Virus record (IMG/VR): IMGVR_UViG_3300024520_000024
Coordinates: 1 to 39,377 of that record
Strand: one strand, 5' to 3'
DNA from: a virus
DNA: 39,377 bases
Shown: positions 9,132 through 39,377 of the stretch, in pieces
Layout of the letters: every line of letters starts with the position of its first letter
Numbering within the stretch: position 1 is the first letter of the stretch
Made by a program: the position numbers and the translations under genes
Notes under the pieces: generated by a model
Told to the model about the DNA's origin: nothing
Database searches by the model: none
Seen by the model: the letters and a program-made list of their open reading frames with translations, nothing else

Positions 9132-9157
9132 ACCCCTAGTGATTATTCACTAGGGGT
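9132..9157. terminator. Bidirectional terminator between convergent operons
   Basis: ACCCCTAGTGA (9132-9142) pairs perfectly with TCACTAGGGGT (9147-9157) around a 4-nt loop. A-runs lie on the left (9124-9130) and T's on the right, so it can stop transcription from both sides. The stop codon of the leftward gene at 9143 lies in the loop. Confidence 0.92.
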
Positions 9158-11621: not shown

Positions 11622-11673
11622 AGTCTTATCTAATGTATATCGGTTGCTATCCCGATATACTTTAGATATTACT
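11622..11673 (-). repeat. Intercistronic hairpin element E1
   Basis: The outer stem pairs TATCTAA (11627-11633) with TTAGATA (11662-11668), flanked by AGT/ACT with a 2-nt internal loop. The inner stem pairs GTATATCGG (11635-11643) with CCGATATAC (11652-11660). The stop codon of the upstream gene (11671-11669) lies within the element, and the Shine-Dalgarno of the next gene follows. Confidence 0.8.
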
Positions 11674-11842
11674 CTGTATCGTTTGAAATAGCTATTGCCT
11701 CTTGCTCTCCCTCTAACTGTATTACTCTTGTATTAATATGTTCTTTTGTAGATAAATCATACTTTTTGATTACTTCAAGAGATGATTTACCTTTAACTGT
11801 ATCAATACCGCCATCTACATATTTGAGTTTAAAATACTTCAT
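11669..11842 (-). CDS. Small unknown protein (57 aa)
   Basis: ATG 11842 follows TAGGAGGTATTGATT; the TAA at 11671-11669 lies inside hairpin E1. The product begins MKYFKLKYVDGGIDTVKGKS and ends with an acidic tail. It looks like a small two-strand plus helix protein. It is flanked by E2 upstream and E1 downstream. Not recognised. Confidence 0.68.
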   Translation of the reverse strand: MKYFKLKYVDGGIDTVKGKSSLEVIKKYDLSTKEHINTRVIQLEGEQEAIAISNDTE

Positions 11843-11864
11843 AATCAATACCTCCTAATAGTTT

Positions 11865-11915
11865 AGTCTTATCTAATAACTAACGGCCATTGACCGTTAG
11901 TCTTTAGATATTACT
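11865..11915 (-). repeat. Intercistronic hairpin element E2
   Basis: The same outer stem as E1 (AGT, CT, TATCTAA at 11865-11876 with TTAGATA, TT, ACT at 11904-11915). The inner stem is different: ACTAACGG (11879-11886) with CCGTTAGT (11894-11901), loop CCATTGA. It contains the stop codon of the gene at 11911. Confidence 0.8.
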
Positions 11916-12069
11916 TAACCGTTTCTGTGTTATAATATCCCTTTTCATGACACCAACAAGACGGTTTACCGTCTTTATTCTTATAAACTACACCGGGTTT
12001 GATGTGTTTATTCTTACCATTCTCTTTATATGGCTTATAGTCACAATCTTTAATATAACATTTAGTCAT
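11911..12069 (-). CDS. Small basic Cys protein (52 aa)
   Basis: ATG 12069 follows AGGAGGTATTAATT; the stop at 11913-11911 lies in E2. The product MTKCYIKDCDYKPYKENGKN carries C-x4-C, then SCWCHEKG with C-x-C-H. A small zinc site is plausible. Lys- and Tyr-rich; function unknown. Confidence 0.65.
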   Translation of the reverse strand: MTKCYIKDCDYKPYKENGKNKHIKPGVVYKNKDGKPSCWCHEKGYYNTETVK

Positions 12070-12087
12070 AATTAATACCTCCTATTT

Positions 12088-12138
12088 AGTCTTATCTAAT
12101 ATCTATCGTCATAAAGACGATAGACTTTAGATATTACT
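12088..12138 (-). repeat. Intercistronic hairpin element E3
   Basis: The same outer stem (AGT, CT, TATCTAA at 12088-12099 with TTAGATA, TT, ACT at 12127-12138). The inner stem pairs TCTATCGTC (12102-12110) with GACGATAGA (12116-12124) around ATAAA. It lies between the genes at 12137-12304 and 11911-12069. Confidence 0.8.
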
Positions 12139-12304
12139 ATCTTACAGATGTTAGTTTCTTAATATCTTTATCTGTAATCTTGAGAATAATATGAGCATCC
12201 GACATATCCAGATGATTAATTACCCAATGCCTAGCATCCGTGTAACTATCTACTGTAATAACATGGGAATCTTTGCCATCAGTCTTAACTATAAACTTAG
12301 CCAT
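12137..12304 (-). CDS. Small unknown protein (55 aa)
   Basis: ATG 12304 follows GGAGGGATATAGGTT; TAG at 12139-12137 touches E3. The product begins MAKFIVKTDGKDSHVITVDS, then TDARHWVINHLDM and a C-terminal ILKITDKDIKKL. The strand-strand-helix-strand impression suggests a small compact fold. Not recognised. Confidence 0.66.
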   Translation of the reverse strand: MAKFIVKTDGKDSHVITVDSYTDARHWVINHLDMSDAHIILKITDKDIKKLTSVR

Positions 12305-12307
12305 AAC

Positions 12308-12406
12308 CTATATCCCTCCAATCATATCAATCACTAAGTAAGCAATATAGCTTACGGATGCAGAGAATACTGATAGGTAGACGAATAGTGTAAGTTCAGA
12401 CCTCAT
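12308..12406 (-). CDS. Membrane microprotein (32 aa)
   Basis: ATG 12406 overlaps the upstream stop as ATGA (12403-12406), with AGAGGAA 6 nt before it. The product is MRSELTLFVYLSVFSASVSY, continuing IAYLVIDMIGGI: one transmembrane segment almost filling the protein. Too short for family assignment; possibly a host-membrane modulator. Confidence 0.58.
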   Translation of the reverse strand: MRSELTLFVYLSVFSASVSYIAYLVIDMIGGI

Positions 12407-12750
12407 GATAGTTCCTCTGTTATCTTTTCGATAACATAATCCATACTAATGGCCTGTCCGGATGTAGTTCTGCCCCATATAGTCATACCCATGAAGTCTT
12501 TAGTTATCATTTCACCTTGTCCAGATAGTTTATCAGCTAACCAATCAGACACTATCCAATGTTCCAATGCCTCAACAACATCTTCATCTTCTCCAATATT
12601 GTCATACTTTGCCGAAAACTCCATAATCTCCTCTATATACTTGTCATCTTTAGATAGTTCACTAATTAGATGACTGATACAATAATGCACTTCACGTCTT
12701 ACAAGTGCATCACATCTTACTTGTAAATCTTTTTCCGTTTCTGTAATCAT
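12403..12750 (-). CDS. Conserved phage protein of unknown function (115 aa)
   Basis: The N-terminal half is helical (EVHYCISHLISELSKDD). The C-terminal half HWIVSDWLADKLSGQGEMI, then DFMGMTIWGRTTSGQAISMD resembles a sequence pattern seen in many phage hypothetical proteins. TAGGAGGTATTACAA precedes the ATG. E4 lies directly upstream. It is the largest gene of the leftward cluster. Function unknown. Confidence 0.78.
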   Translation of the reverse strand: MITETEKDLQVRCDALVRREVHYCISHLISELSKDDKYIEEIMEFSAKYDNIGEDEDVVEALEHWIVSDWLADKLSGQGEMITKDFMGMTIWGRTTSGQAISMDYVIEKITEELS

Positions 12751-12767
12751 TTGTAATACCTCCTAGT

Positions 12768-12832
12768 AGTTTTATCTAATTCCATAGATGCTATCGTATA
12801 GACTAGCATCTTAGGTATTAGATTAATCTATT
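12768..12832 (-). repeat. Intercistronic hairpin element E4 (divergent copy)
   Basis: AGT TT TATCTAAT (12768-12780) pairs with TTAGATTA (12818-12825), a variant of the E1-E3 outer arm. The inner stem AGATGCTA (12786-12793) pairs with TAGCATCT (12804-12811). It lies between the genes at 12823-12945 and 12403-12750, in the same position as E1-E3. Confidence 0.65.
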
Positions 12833-12945
12833 ACTTGTTTTATATCGTATACGAAACCCGCCACCTCTTCTACATTCTCTTTTAAATCTTCTAATTCCTC
12901 TGCGTTTAATTCCTTATTCCCTGATACCTCAATTATTAATTTCAT
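12823..12945 (-). CDS. Acidic microprotein (40 aa)
   Basis: ATG 12945 follows GGGAGGTATTACAG; TAA at 12825-12823 lies in E4. The product MKLIIEVSGNKELNAEELED ends in VYDIKQVID. It has a strand followed by an acidic helix. First gene after the leftward promoter; small acidic first-expressed phage proteins often act against host factors, but nothing specific can be said. Confidence 0.62.
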   Translation of the reverse strand: MKLIIEVSGNKELNAEELEDLKENVEEVAGFVYDIKQVID

Positions 12946-12984
12946 CTGTAATACCTCCCTAGTTGATTTGTCTATCTATTGACT

Positions 12985-13012
12985 AGTATACAGGAAAATA
13001 GCGCATAATCAA
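12985..13012 (-). promoter_or_regulatory. Leftward promoter of the small-gene cluster
   Basis: On the minus strand, TTGATT (13012-13007), a 16-nt spacer, then TATACT (12990-12985), 40 nt upstream of the ATG at 12945. It diverges from the rightward promoter at 13674 across the repeat-rich region. Confidence 0.72.
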
Positions 13013-13266
13013 CATAATAATGCAAATATATCAATTATTTTCTGTAGATAGCCTGTATTGCTTAATATATCTCTATATATAGTATATCGGCCACACATCC
13101 AGATACATTAACACTCACTACTATATATAGAGTGTACGTACTGATATTAGTATTTCAGACCTGTATTACTATATATGTATTATATATGTATTAGTAATAG
13201 ATATAACAGTATATGTATTAGTAAGGTATTAGTAGTAGTTATAAGACTATTACTACTTACTAGTAT

Positions 13267-13279
13267 ATTACTTGGTAAT
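13267..13279. repeat. 13-mer ATTACTTGGTAAT, copy 1
   Basis: Near-palindrome with ATTAC and GTAAT arms; identical copy at 13566-13578 and a one-mismatch copy at 13631-13643. Probable binding site of a dimeric protein. Confidence 0.6.
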
Positions 13280-13565
13280 GTATATTAGTAATAGACTACT
13301 GTAGTGTATTAGTTACTAATACCCTTATGACTGTATTAGTAATTAGGGTATTAGGGATGTACTAGTACATTAGTAATGTATTAGTACATTACTAACGGTA
13401 TTAGTATGTACCGGTATATACTGTTAGTACGTTATAATACCTTTACAGCTGTAATAGTACATTTAAAAGGTATTACAGAGGTTCGGTCAAGCCTATTTTA
13501 GTACGGTATAGTATCTTAGTATTACTATTGATATATAGGCACACTCTTGTTCCTACGTTCTGATA

Positions 13566-13578
13566 ATTACTTGGTAAT
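13566..13578. repeat. 13-mer ATTACTTGGTAAT, copy 2
   Basis: Identical to the copy at 13267. It is followed by TACTAATA, the inverted form of the octamer repeat of the region. Confidence 0.6.
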
Positions 13579-13630
13579 TACTAATATCTTACAGAGTATT
13601 CGGTAGTAGTATCCTTTTGTATACGGATAT

Positions 13631-13643
13631 ATTACTTGGAAAT
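13631..13643. repeat. 13-mer ATTACTTGGAAAT, copy 3
   Basis: One mismatch to copies 1 and 2. It ends 30 bp upstream of the -35 box of the rightward promoter at 13674, a suitable place for an activator or repressor. Confidence 0.5.
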
Positions 13644-13673
13644 ATATAACAGAAAAGAAACTGGAGTTTTATC

Positions 13674-13701
13674 TTGACTCTAAGAGTAGGTTAGATATAC
13701 T
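13674..13701 (+). promoter_or_regulatory. Rightward promoter of the accessory operon
   Basis: TTGACT (13674-13679), a 16-nt spacer, TATACT (13696-13701). Predicted start near 13708, followed by AGAAGGGAG and the ATG at 13735. Confidence 0.78.
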
Positions 13702-16659: not shown

Positions 16660-16935
16660 ATGGGTGAGTGTAGTATATGTCAGCAGAAAGTTAATCCGTA
16701 TAAGAAACACGAATGTATTGTATATGGATTGTCGGATATACAGAGGGTAGAGATAGCAAGTGAGTTATTAGAAGCCAAAGACACAGAACTAACAGAAGCC
16801 AAGAGGATTATTGGGGAGTTGGATAATATAGCACGTGATACAACTTATGACGAAATTAGCTGTTTGAAGAAGATGTTAAATGTCATATTTAGCAAAGAAG
16901 CCAAAGCGTTCTTGGAAGGGAAAGATAATGGCTAA
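16660..16935 (+). CDS. Zinc-knuckle coiled-coil protein (91 aa)
   Basis: CSICQQKVNPYKKHEC near the N-terminus gives a C-x2-C...H-x-C knuckle; the rest is helical (ELLEAKDTELTEAKRIIGEL). The segment coding for ELTEAKRIIGEL is part of a 38-nt direct repeat shared with the next gene. GAAAGGAGACAG precedes the ATG. An 81-nt gap upstream carries TATAAA-like boxes but no convincing -35. Confidence 0.66.
   Translation: MGECSICQQKVNPYKKHECIVYGLSDIQRVEIASELLEAKDTELTEAKRIIGELDNIARDTTYDEISCLKKMLNVIFSKEAKAFLEGKDNG
16785..16822 (+). repeat. 38-nt direct repeat, copy 1
   Basis: Identical to 17233-17270. It encodes ELTEAKRIIGEL in both genes and is in frame in each. Also, GCCAAAGACACAGA just upstream recurs near 17042. 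Signature of partial gene duplication or recombination. Confidence 0.85.
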
Positions 16936-17395
16936 TGACAACCTACAGTTTAGAGGCTTTTGGGCAAAACTAACCCAAGTTGCAAGGGGTAGAATGAAGA
17001 AAAGAGACATAGCAAGATGGGGTTGGAACGCCTGTGCTAAAGCCAAAGACACAGAGATTGCTGAGTTGAAAGAGAGGTATGACAGGACTAAGCAAACGCT
17101 TGTTAGTATGGATAAAGCATTTACAGGTACAAAAAAAGAAGTGTGGCTTGAACTTCAAAAGGCATTGGGTTGTTATGATGGTATGAATAAGGCAGAACAA
17201 TCACGCACAGTAGAATGTTTGGAACTGTCAGAAGAACTAACAGAAGCCAAGAGGATTATTGGGGAGTTGGTCGAGGATATATACGGAGAGTGTGATTCAT
17301 TGAAAGAAGCCAAAGTATTTCTAGGCGAGAAAACACCAGACGAGTTACAGGTGGAAGTTATACAGAAAAGGTTAAAGGAGGATAGAGGTGAGTGA
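16928..17395 (+). CDS. Coiled-coil protein (155 aa)
   Basis: The start at ATG 16928 gives the recurring ATGGCTAA overlap. The N-terminus is compact (NLQFRGFWAKLTQVARGRMKKR, ARWGWNACAK); the rest is long helix with ELSEELTEAKRIIGELVED. It shares the 38-nt repeat with the upstream gene and ends VIQKRLKEDRGE. Function unknown. Confidence 0.66.
   Translation: MANDNLQFRGFWAKLTQVARGRMKKRDIARWGWNACAKAKDTEIAELKERYDRTKQTLVSMDKAFTGTKKEVWLELQKALGCYDGMNKAEQSRTVECLELSEELTEAKRIIGELVEDIYGECDSLKEAKVFLGEKTPDELQVEVIQKRLKEDRGE
17233..17270 (+). repeat. 38-nt direct repeat, copy 2
   Basis: Identical to 16785-16822, located 448 nt downstream in the adjacent gene. Confidence 0.85.
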
Positions 17396-39171: not shown

Positions 39172-39377
39172 AGAACACCCTATGGTTGTATGTACTTGGC
39201 TCGACGCCGAGACTGACGGTGGGTGGCATGACAGGGACGAGATAGACGCTACTAAACATACAACCCCTACAACCTGTCAGACTATGGGATTTCTCTTGCA
39301 TAATGACGATAAGGTTGTTACACTTGTAGGAAGTATTAACGAGTATGAATATGGAGAAGTAACAAAGATTCCAAAGG
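39161..39377 (+). CDS. Small conserved phage protein, N-terminal part (continues at 128)
   Basis: Starts at ATG 39161 (or ATG 39182 in frame, with GGGGAG at 39163-39168) and runs open to the end of the window. Collapsing the 127-nt overlap, it continues at 128 and ends TAG at 183, giving 90 codons. The N-terminus reads MGSKEHPMVVCTWLDAETDG. The CTW-DA start and IPKG-IxxI end are typical of a small phage protein of unknown function. Confidence 0.85.
   Translation, partial: MGSKEHPMVVCTWLDAETDGGWHDRDEIDATKHTTPTTCQTMGFLLHNDDKVVTLVGSINEYEYGEVTKIPK
39251..39377. repeat. Terminal direct repeat, copy 2 (circularisation overlap)
   Basis: Identical to bases 1-127. Removing one copy closes the circle at 39,250 bp and restores the gene that spans the junction. 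Confidence 0.93.

Follow-up and report, generated by a model that had tools for sequence, protein, structure and literature searches.

How phages swap the tiny genes used in host takeover without breaking the expression of the operon that carries them is an open question. In the locus described here, small leftward genes are separated by near-identical hairpins. The window, that is, the whole stretch of DNA analysed (39,377 nt), begins and ends with the same 127 nt (1-127 and 39251-39377), so that the genome, of about 39,250 bp and either circular or terminally redundant, is probably complete. Genes for DnaB, terminase, capsid and a PAPS-reductase-like protein mark it as a tailed phage, probably a complete podovirus-like phage of about 39.25 kb, with a capsid protein about 25% identical to those of Stenotrophomonas BUCT555 and Myxococcus Mx8/Mx9. 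The phage collection searched at the DNA level contained no near match, and relatives sought through DnaB, PAPS reductase, terminase and the capsid protein were either the phage itself or below about 33% identity; these searches yielded no relative of closer than some 30% identity in protein sequence. IMG/VR protein scans returned only two contigs, both from the same sample and of the same phage (the capsid alignment was too divergent for use as a scan query).

About 15 small genes form a leftward operon, which runs from about 12,950 down to the terminator at 9132-9157 and presumably represents the early region, and the remaining genome is rightward. The features of this operon that matter here are listed in the order of transcription.

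12985..13012, minus strand: candidate sigma70-type promoter of the leftward operon (weak, 9/12)
12823..12945, minus strand: first gene of the operon, 40 aa, with its TAA stop within E4
about 12767..12835, minus strand: E4, a divergent copy with outer stem AUCUAA/UUAGAU, an unrelated inner stem (AGAUGCUA/UAGCAUCU) and an insertion in the 5' arm
12403..12750, minus strand: gene after E4, 115 aa, with a conserved EHWIVSxWLADKL domain also present in Rhizobium and Vibrio phages
12137..12304, minus strand: small gene, 55 aa, with a TAG stop overlapping the E3 foot
12088..12138, minus strand: E3, 51 nt, with foot and outer stem of the E1 type and a 10-bp inner stem (GUCUAUCGUC) including one G-U pair
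11911..12069, minus strand: small Cys-rich gene, 52 aa, between E3 and E2, with its TAA stop inside the E2 foot
11865..11915, minus strand: E2, 51 nt, with foot and outer stem of the E1 type and an 11-bp inner stem (GACUAACGGUC) including two G-U pairs
11669..11848, minus strand: small gene, 57-59 aa, between E2 and E1, with its TAA stop inside the E1 foot
11622..11673, minus strand: E1, 52 nt, with foot AGU/ACU, a 2x2 internal loop, a 7-bp outer stem (UAUCUAA/UUAGAUA), an A.A mismatch, a 9-bp inner stem (GUAUAUCGG) and an 8-nt loop
11415..11597, minus strand: small Cys-rich gene, 60 aa, after E1
9132..9157, no strand assigned: bidirectional intrinsic terminator between the convergent operons, from the terminator scan, at the 3' end of the leftward transcript

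Several other observations were made on this genome. The protein encoded at 12403-12750 carries the motif EHWIVSxWLADKL...WxRxxxGQxI, and related segments occur in some Vibrio phages inside proteins annotated as ATPase. An unlisted ORF of 32 codons at 12308-12406 on the minus strand (MRSELTLFVYLSVFSASVSYIAYLVIDMIGGI, read by eye), possibly a small membrane protein, fills the only promoter-proximal gap without a hairpin. The stretch of about 700 nt between the divergent operons (12980-13700) is non-coding, looks like an origin or control region and is dense in strong plus-strand hairpins; it holds seven copies of the 9-mer GTATTAGTA and its inverse, with one copy elsewhere (both strands counted). 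A perfect 38-bp direct repeat (AGAACTAACAGAAGCCAAGAGGATTATTGGGGAGTTGG) at 16785-16822 and 17233-17270 lies in two adjacent rightward coding regions, which suggests a recent duplication or conversion.

The four elements reported by the initial annotation were found again at their positions, with E4 the more divergent copy, and the outer arms (AGTAATATCTAAA...ATTAGATAAGACT) are indeed identical in E1, E2 and E3. In the mRNA sense, these three elements share the arrangement AGU-AA-UAUCUAA-A-(inner stem-loop)-A-UUAGAUA-AG-ACU, with stems of 22-24 positions forming nearly continuous duplexes of about 22 bp, or about two helical turns of dsRNA. E4 has a shorter outer arm with an insertion and mismatches in its stem. 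A covariance model built from E1-E3 only recovers E4 with E = 3.3e-5, and beyond the four elements and mirror-strand matches of E1-E3 the next match has E = 0.07; E4 is a real divergent copy of the same element. In E1 and E2 the 5' foot contains the stop codon of the gene before it (AG-TAA); in E3 a TAG stop overlaps the foot, and in E4 the TAA stop is located further inside the element. A Shine-Dalgarno sequence (SD) follows 3-12 nt past the hairpin in E1-E3, with the next gene's AUG after it; a ribosome site had been predicted there, but at E1 it reads AGGGAGGTATT and not AGGAGGTATT.

Is the pairing itself under selection? The inner arms, which had been described as different in each copy, align without gaps and in register in E1-E3 (GUAUAUCGG/GACUAACGG/GUCUAUCGU) and are diverged homologues with compensation; only the inner stem of E4 looks unrelated. 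Among the nine aligned inner pairs, four show double-sided changes when counted against the commonest pair per position (U-A/A-U, C-G/A-U, U-A/A-U and G-C/U-A), one alternates between G-C and G-U, four are invariant and none is broken. The seven outer and three foot pairs are invariant, giving double-sided changes in 4 of 19 pairs overall with 100% of cells paired. These values were reached by 4 of 500 shuffles and by none of the alignments with partners slid by 1-2 columns, a test of limited power and modest statistical weight given three close copies from one genome. Compensatory variation within a single genome, as first proposed, is present and supports a selected structure.

Similar elements lying close together might also be functionless remnants of recent tandem duplications, but the intervening genes are dissimilar and the pairing has survived several double changes. 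A tandem-duplication origin was rejected on finding no similarity between the flanking proteins, and we consider this explanation highly improbable.

The strand on which the pairing is best identifies the molecule concerned. G-U pairs, of which E3 has one and E2 has two (one of these near the loop), exist on the mRNA-sense strand only, and on the opposite strand the same positions of E2 and E3 would be unpaired C-A. Predicted folding energies of E1, E2 and E3 are -26.3, -27.6 and -26.2 kcal/mol on the mRNA strand versus -22.7, -22.8 and -24.3 kcal/mol on the other. The G-U pairs and stronger fold on the mRNA strand only indicate that RNA, rather than a DNA site, is the selected molecule. In a GC-corrected fold scan of the genome (19,658 64-nt segments, both strands), the mRNA-sense segments of E2, E3 and E1 rank among the seven strongest (z = -5.4, -5.2 and -4.4, respectively); in the list of close inverted repeats for the window, E3 and E1 take the first two places. 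Taken together, the covariation, the mRNA-strand-only G-U pairs and the fixed position relative to stop codon and SD support a real, selected RNA structure in E1-E3.

A palindrome acting at the DNA level, as a protein operator or as an attC-like folded single-stranded recombination site, would account for the imperfect symmetry, and the outer boxes ATCTAAA and ATTAGAT resemble attC R boxes. However, the boxes here lack the terminal C/G of R boxes, no gene of the Phage_integrase family was found and the G-U pairs form in the RNA sense only, leaving this reading with very little probability.

Strong hairpins between genes could serve as attenuators or terminators, Rho-dependent or polymerase-specific, that step down expression along the operon. 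However, E1-E4 all lack a U-tract, and the scan that calls the terminator at 9132-9157 calls none of them; we regard such a role as very doubtful. Neither was a sigma70-like promoter found on the coding strand within E1-E4, the type of promoter that the scan covered. Somewhat less improbable, though still unlikely, is an antitermination or RNA-polymerase-modifying signal (a boxB/nut-like or put-like RNA) repeated along the early operon. Its fit lies in the sequence-fixed outer and variable inner stem, the repetition near the start of a long operon and the restriction to the transcribed strand. Such signals are, however, usually single and near the promoter rather than at each junction with a stop codon inside, and Rfam gave no match at gathering score and no credible one at relaxed thresholds.

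Further copies were sought outside the window. The covariance model found none in about 1.4 Mb of sequence from other viruses (best outside match E = 0.017), and GTDB genomes searched with the exact outer arms contained no copy of the E1-E4 element. Among the matches listed by exact and relaxed pattern scans, all were either on the contig of the phage itself or chance hits whose inner arms do not pair. The conserved gene after E4 was found at 46 other loci, none of them matched by covariance model R1; the four phages with capsids of about 25% identity likewise showed no R1 match and no convincing hairpin family (a few weak pairs). Candidate repeats in L170 and L171 proved to be a chance pair, one of them inside a gene. 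A de novo script, which looks for several hairpins per genome with common outer arms, recovered E1/E2 in the window, a T7 pair and an unrelated IMG/VR lineage.

From the structure, covariation, strand preference and position observed in the window, we propose that a single selected RNA element is present four times, as E1-E4, between the cistrons of the leftward mRNA. It would be a hairpin of the T7 type that processes, stabilises or insulates the message, with its repeats used in addition as recombination joints (probability roughly 0.5). Its 5' foot carries or completes the stop codon of the preceding gene (further in for E4), and its 3' flank runs straight on to a strong SD and the next start codon. 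The hairpin might be cut by a double-strand-specific host endonuclease (RNase III) or simply block exonucleases; either way, the polycistronic message would be split into separately stable cistrons with defined, protected ends and independent ribosome sites. By analogy, T7-like RNase III processing or protection of mRNA ends is the most likely and the most economical function. No RNase III domain was found in the phage genome, so a host enzyme would be needed.

The inner stem would be maintained as structure only, and the sequence of the outer stem kept constant for recognition or through homogenised copies. Its invariance points either to a partner that recognises the sequence or to copies homogenised by recombination, and a conservation stricter than RNase III needs hints at the former. 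Because it supplies a stop, leads into an SD and is repeated in direct orientation, the element could act as a natural joint for swapping small gene cassettes. The roles first listed for the hairpins (RNase processing, mRNA stabilisation, control of coupling between genes, or a recombination module) were well chosen although unranked; RNase III processing and cassette shuffling gain from analogues only and not from the window phage.

An analogue for cassette exchange is the unrelated phage lineage found by the de novo script, represented by four IMG/VR contigs: L048 (3300009124_000148), L087 (3300025869_000046), L145 (3300046163_000043) and L146 (3300025869_001662). Its element, GCUAAUAGCUCGG-(inner)-CUAGGGUAUUAACA, is unlike E1-E4 in sequence. 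A model search found 5-6 copies per contig, nearly all confined to a few kb, with single small genes between the hairpins. The outer part is nearly invariant and the inner stem covaries, more strongly than in E1-E3: across ten copies, 6 of 18 pairs show double-sided changes, 98.9% of cells are paired and none of 500 shuffles reached these values. In most listed cassettes the preceding TAA occupies hairpin positions 5-7 and an SD comes after the hairpin. This lineage is like E1-E3 in having the stop in the 5' foot, a fixed outer and covarying inner stem, the SD next and direct repeats between small genes.

In this lineage, the cassettes are visibly permuted. The orders are F1-F2-F3-F4 in L048, F5-F2-F6-F4 in L087, F1-F4'-F5-F7 in L145 and F1-F6-F5-F4 in L146. 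A hairpin-gene-hairpin block of 307 nt is 99.7% identical between L087 and L146, and a second block, 96% identical in the same contigs, stands before it in one and after it in the other. The same hairpin allele thus has different neighbours across contigs, which places the exchange at the hairpin or within it. Of 66 alignment ends, 33 lie in hairpins against 12.4 expected, although these ends are not independent, since alignments cross a shared repeat, which makes the p-value no more than indicative, and breakpoints at the repeats could be a passive result of homology.

These permutations, with hairpin alleles switching neighbours among F1-F7, also fit elements that are primarily PeSL-like recombination joints, kept for cassette exchange between co-infecting phages with RNA structure secondary, as do the near-identical hairpins that separate genes without detectable mutual similarity in the window. 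Yet homologous recombination needs identity, and the inner stems have diverged while their pairing was kept, which argues that the structure itself is selected; moreover, neither a tyrosine recombinase (PF00589) nor a Y1 transposase (PF01797) was found in the phage genome. As a primary role, we therefore think recombination rather improbable. As a secondary use of the proposed processing hairpins it is plausible by analogy, and the unlike genes flanking them fit it.

Among the closest known systems are R0.3, R0.5, R1, R1.1 and R1.3 of T7, the early-region RNase III sites of Dunn and Studier. When folded, the T7 early spacers adjoin a stop codon and have a constant lower stem (AAGGUC/GGCCUU) and a variable top, followed by the leader of the next gene. 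E1-E3 are similarly several hairpins between genes of one polycistronic message (putatively an early one), positioned at stop codons and directly ahead of the ribosome site that follows, with a fixed lower stem, a variable apical part, no U-tract and about two helical turns of nearly continuous dsRNA. They differ in having the stop codon inside the foot and a longer, AU-rich stem, and cleavage, a property of the T7 sites, is putative here. Covariance model R1 had no match in the T7 genome, and no sequence homology to the T7 sites was found. Panganiban and Whiteley reportedly described in 1983 Bs-RNase III sites in the early mRNA of Bacillus phage SP82 as intercistronic cleavage hairpins; by this description they resemble E1-E4 in being intercistronic hairpins.

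Integron attC sites have R boxes of consensus RYYYAAC/GTTRRRY. E1-E4 share with them the imperfect palindrome, the conserved outer boxes and the position after each small gene, but have no GTT core or GTTRRRY/RYYYAAC boxes, form G-U pairs in the RNA sense only and are not accompanied by a detectable integron-type tyrosine recombinase; they were accordingly not classed as attC. Assignment to REP/RAYT elements was rejected in a genome where no Y1 transposase was found, to intrinsic terminators for want of a GC-rich stem with U-run, and to Rfam families with none at the gathering threshold.

The PeSLs of T4-like phages (Arbiol 2010, Comeau 2014) are, as described in PMC4503421 (and cited in PMC5931544), repeated intergenic stem-loops at the joints of shuffled small-gene cassettes, each pairing an early promoter with a terminator-like stem-loop. 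E1-E4 differ in having neither a sigma70-like coding-strand promoter nor a terminator-like U-tract and were not counted as PeSLs. By sequence E1-E4 are a new family, their general kind being known in outline from the T7 RNase III sites and PeSLs, and the stop codon in the stem foot is an unusual feature of E1-E3. If a selected RNA structure closes one gene and opens onto the next, each cassette would become interchangeable. It is possible, although we hold it only tentatively, that the window phage, the L048 lineage and T7-like phages have separately arrived at a convergent class of "cassette-joint" RNA, which processes and insulates the message and provides a seam for reshuffling accessory genes without promoter or terminator. 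Of these results the convergent second lineage is the most useful, since with it this idea can be tested by comparative genomics and RNA end mapping.
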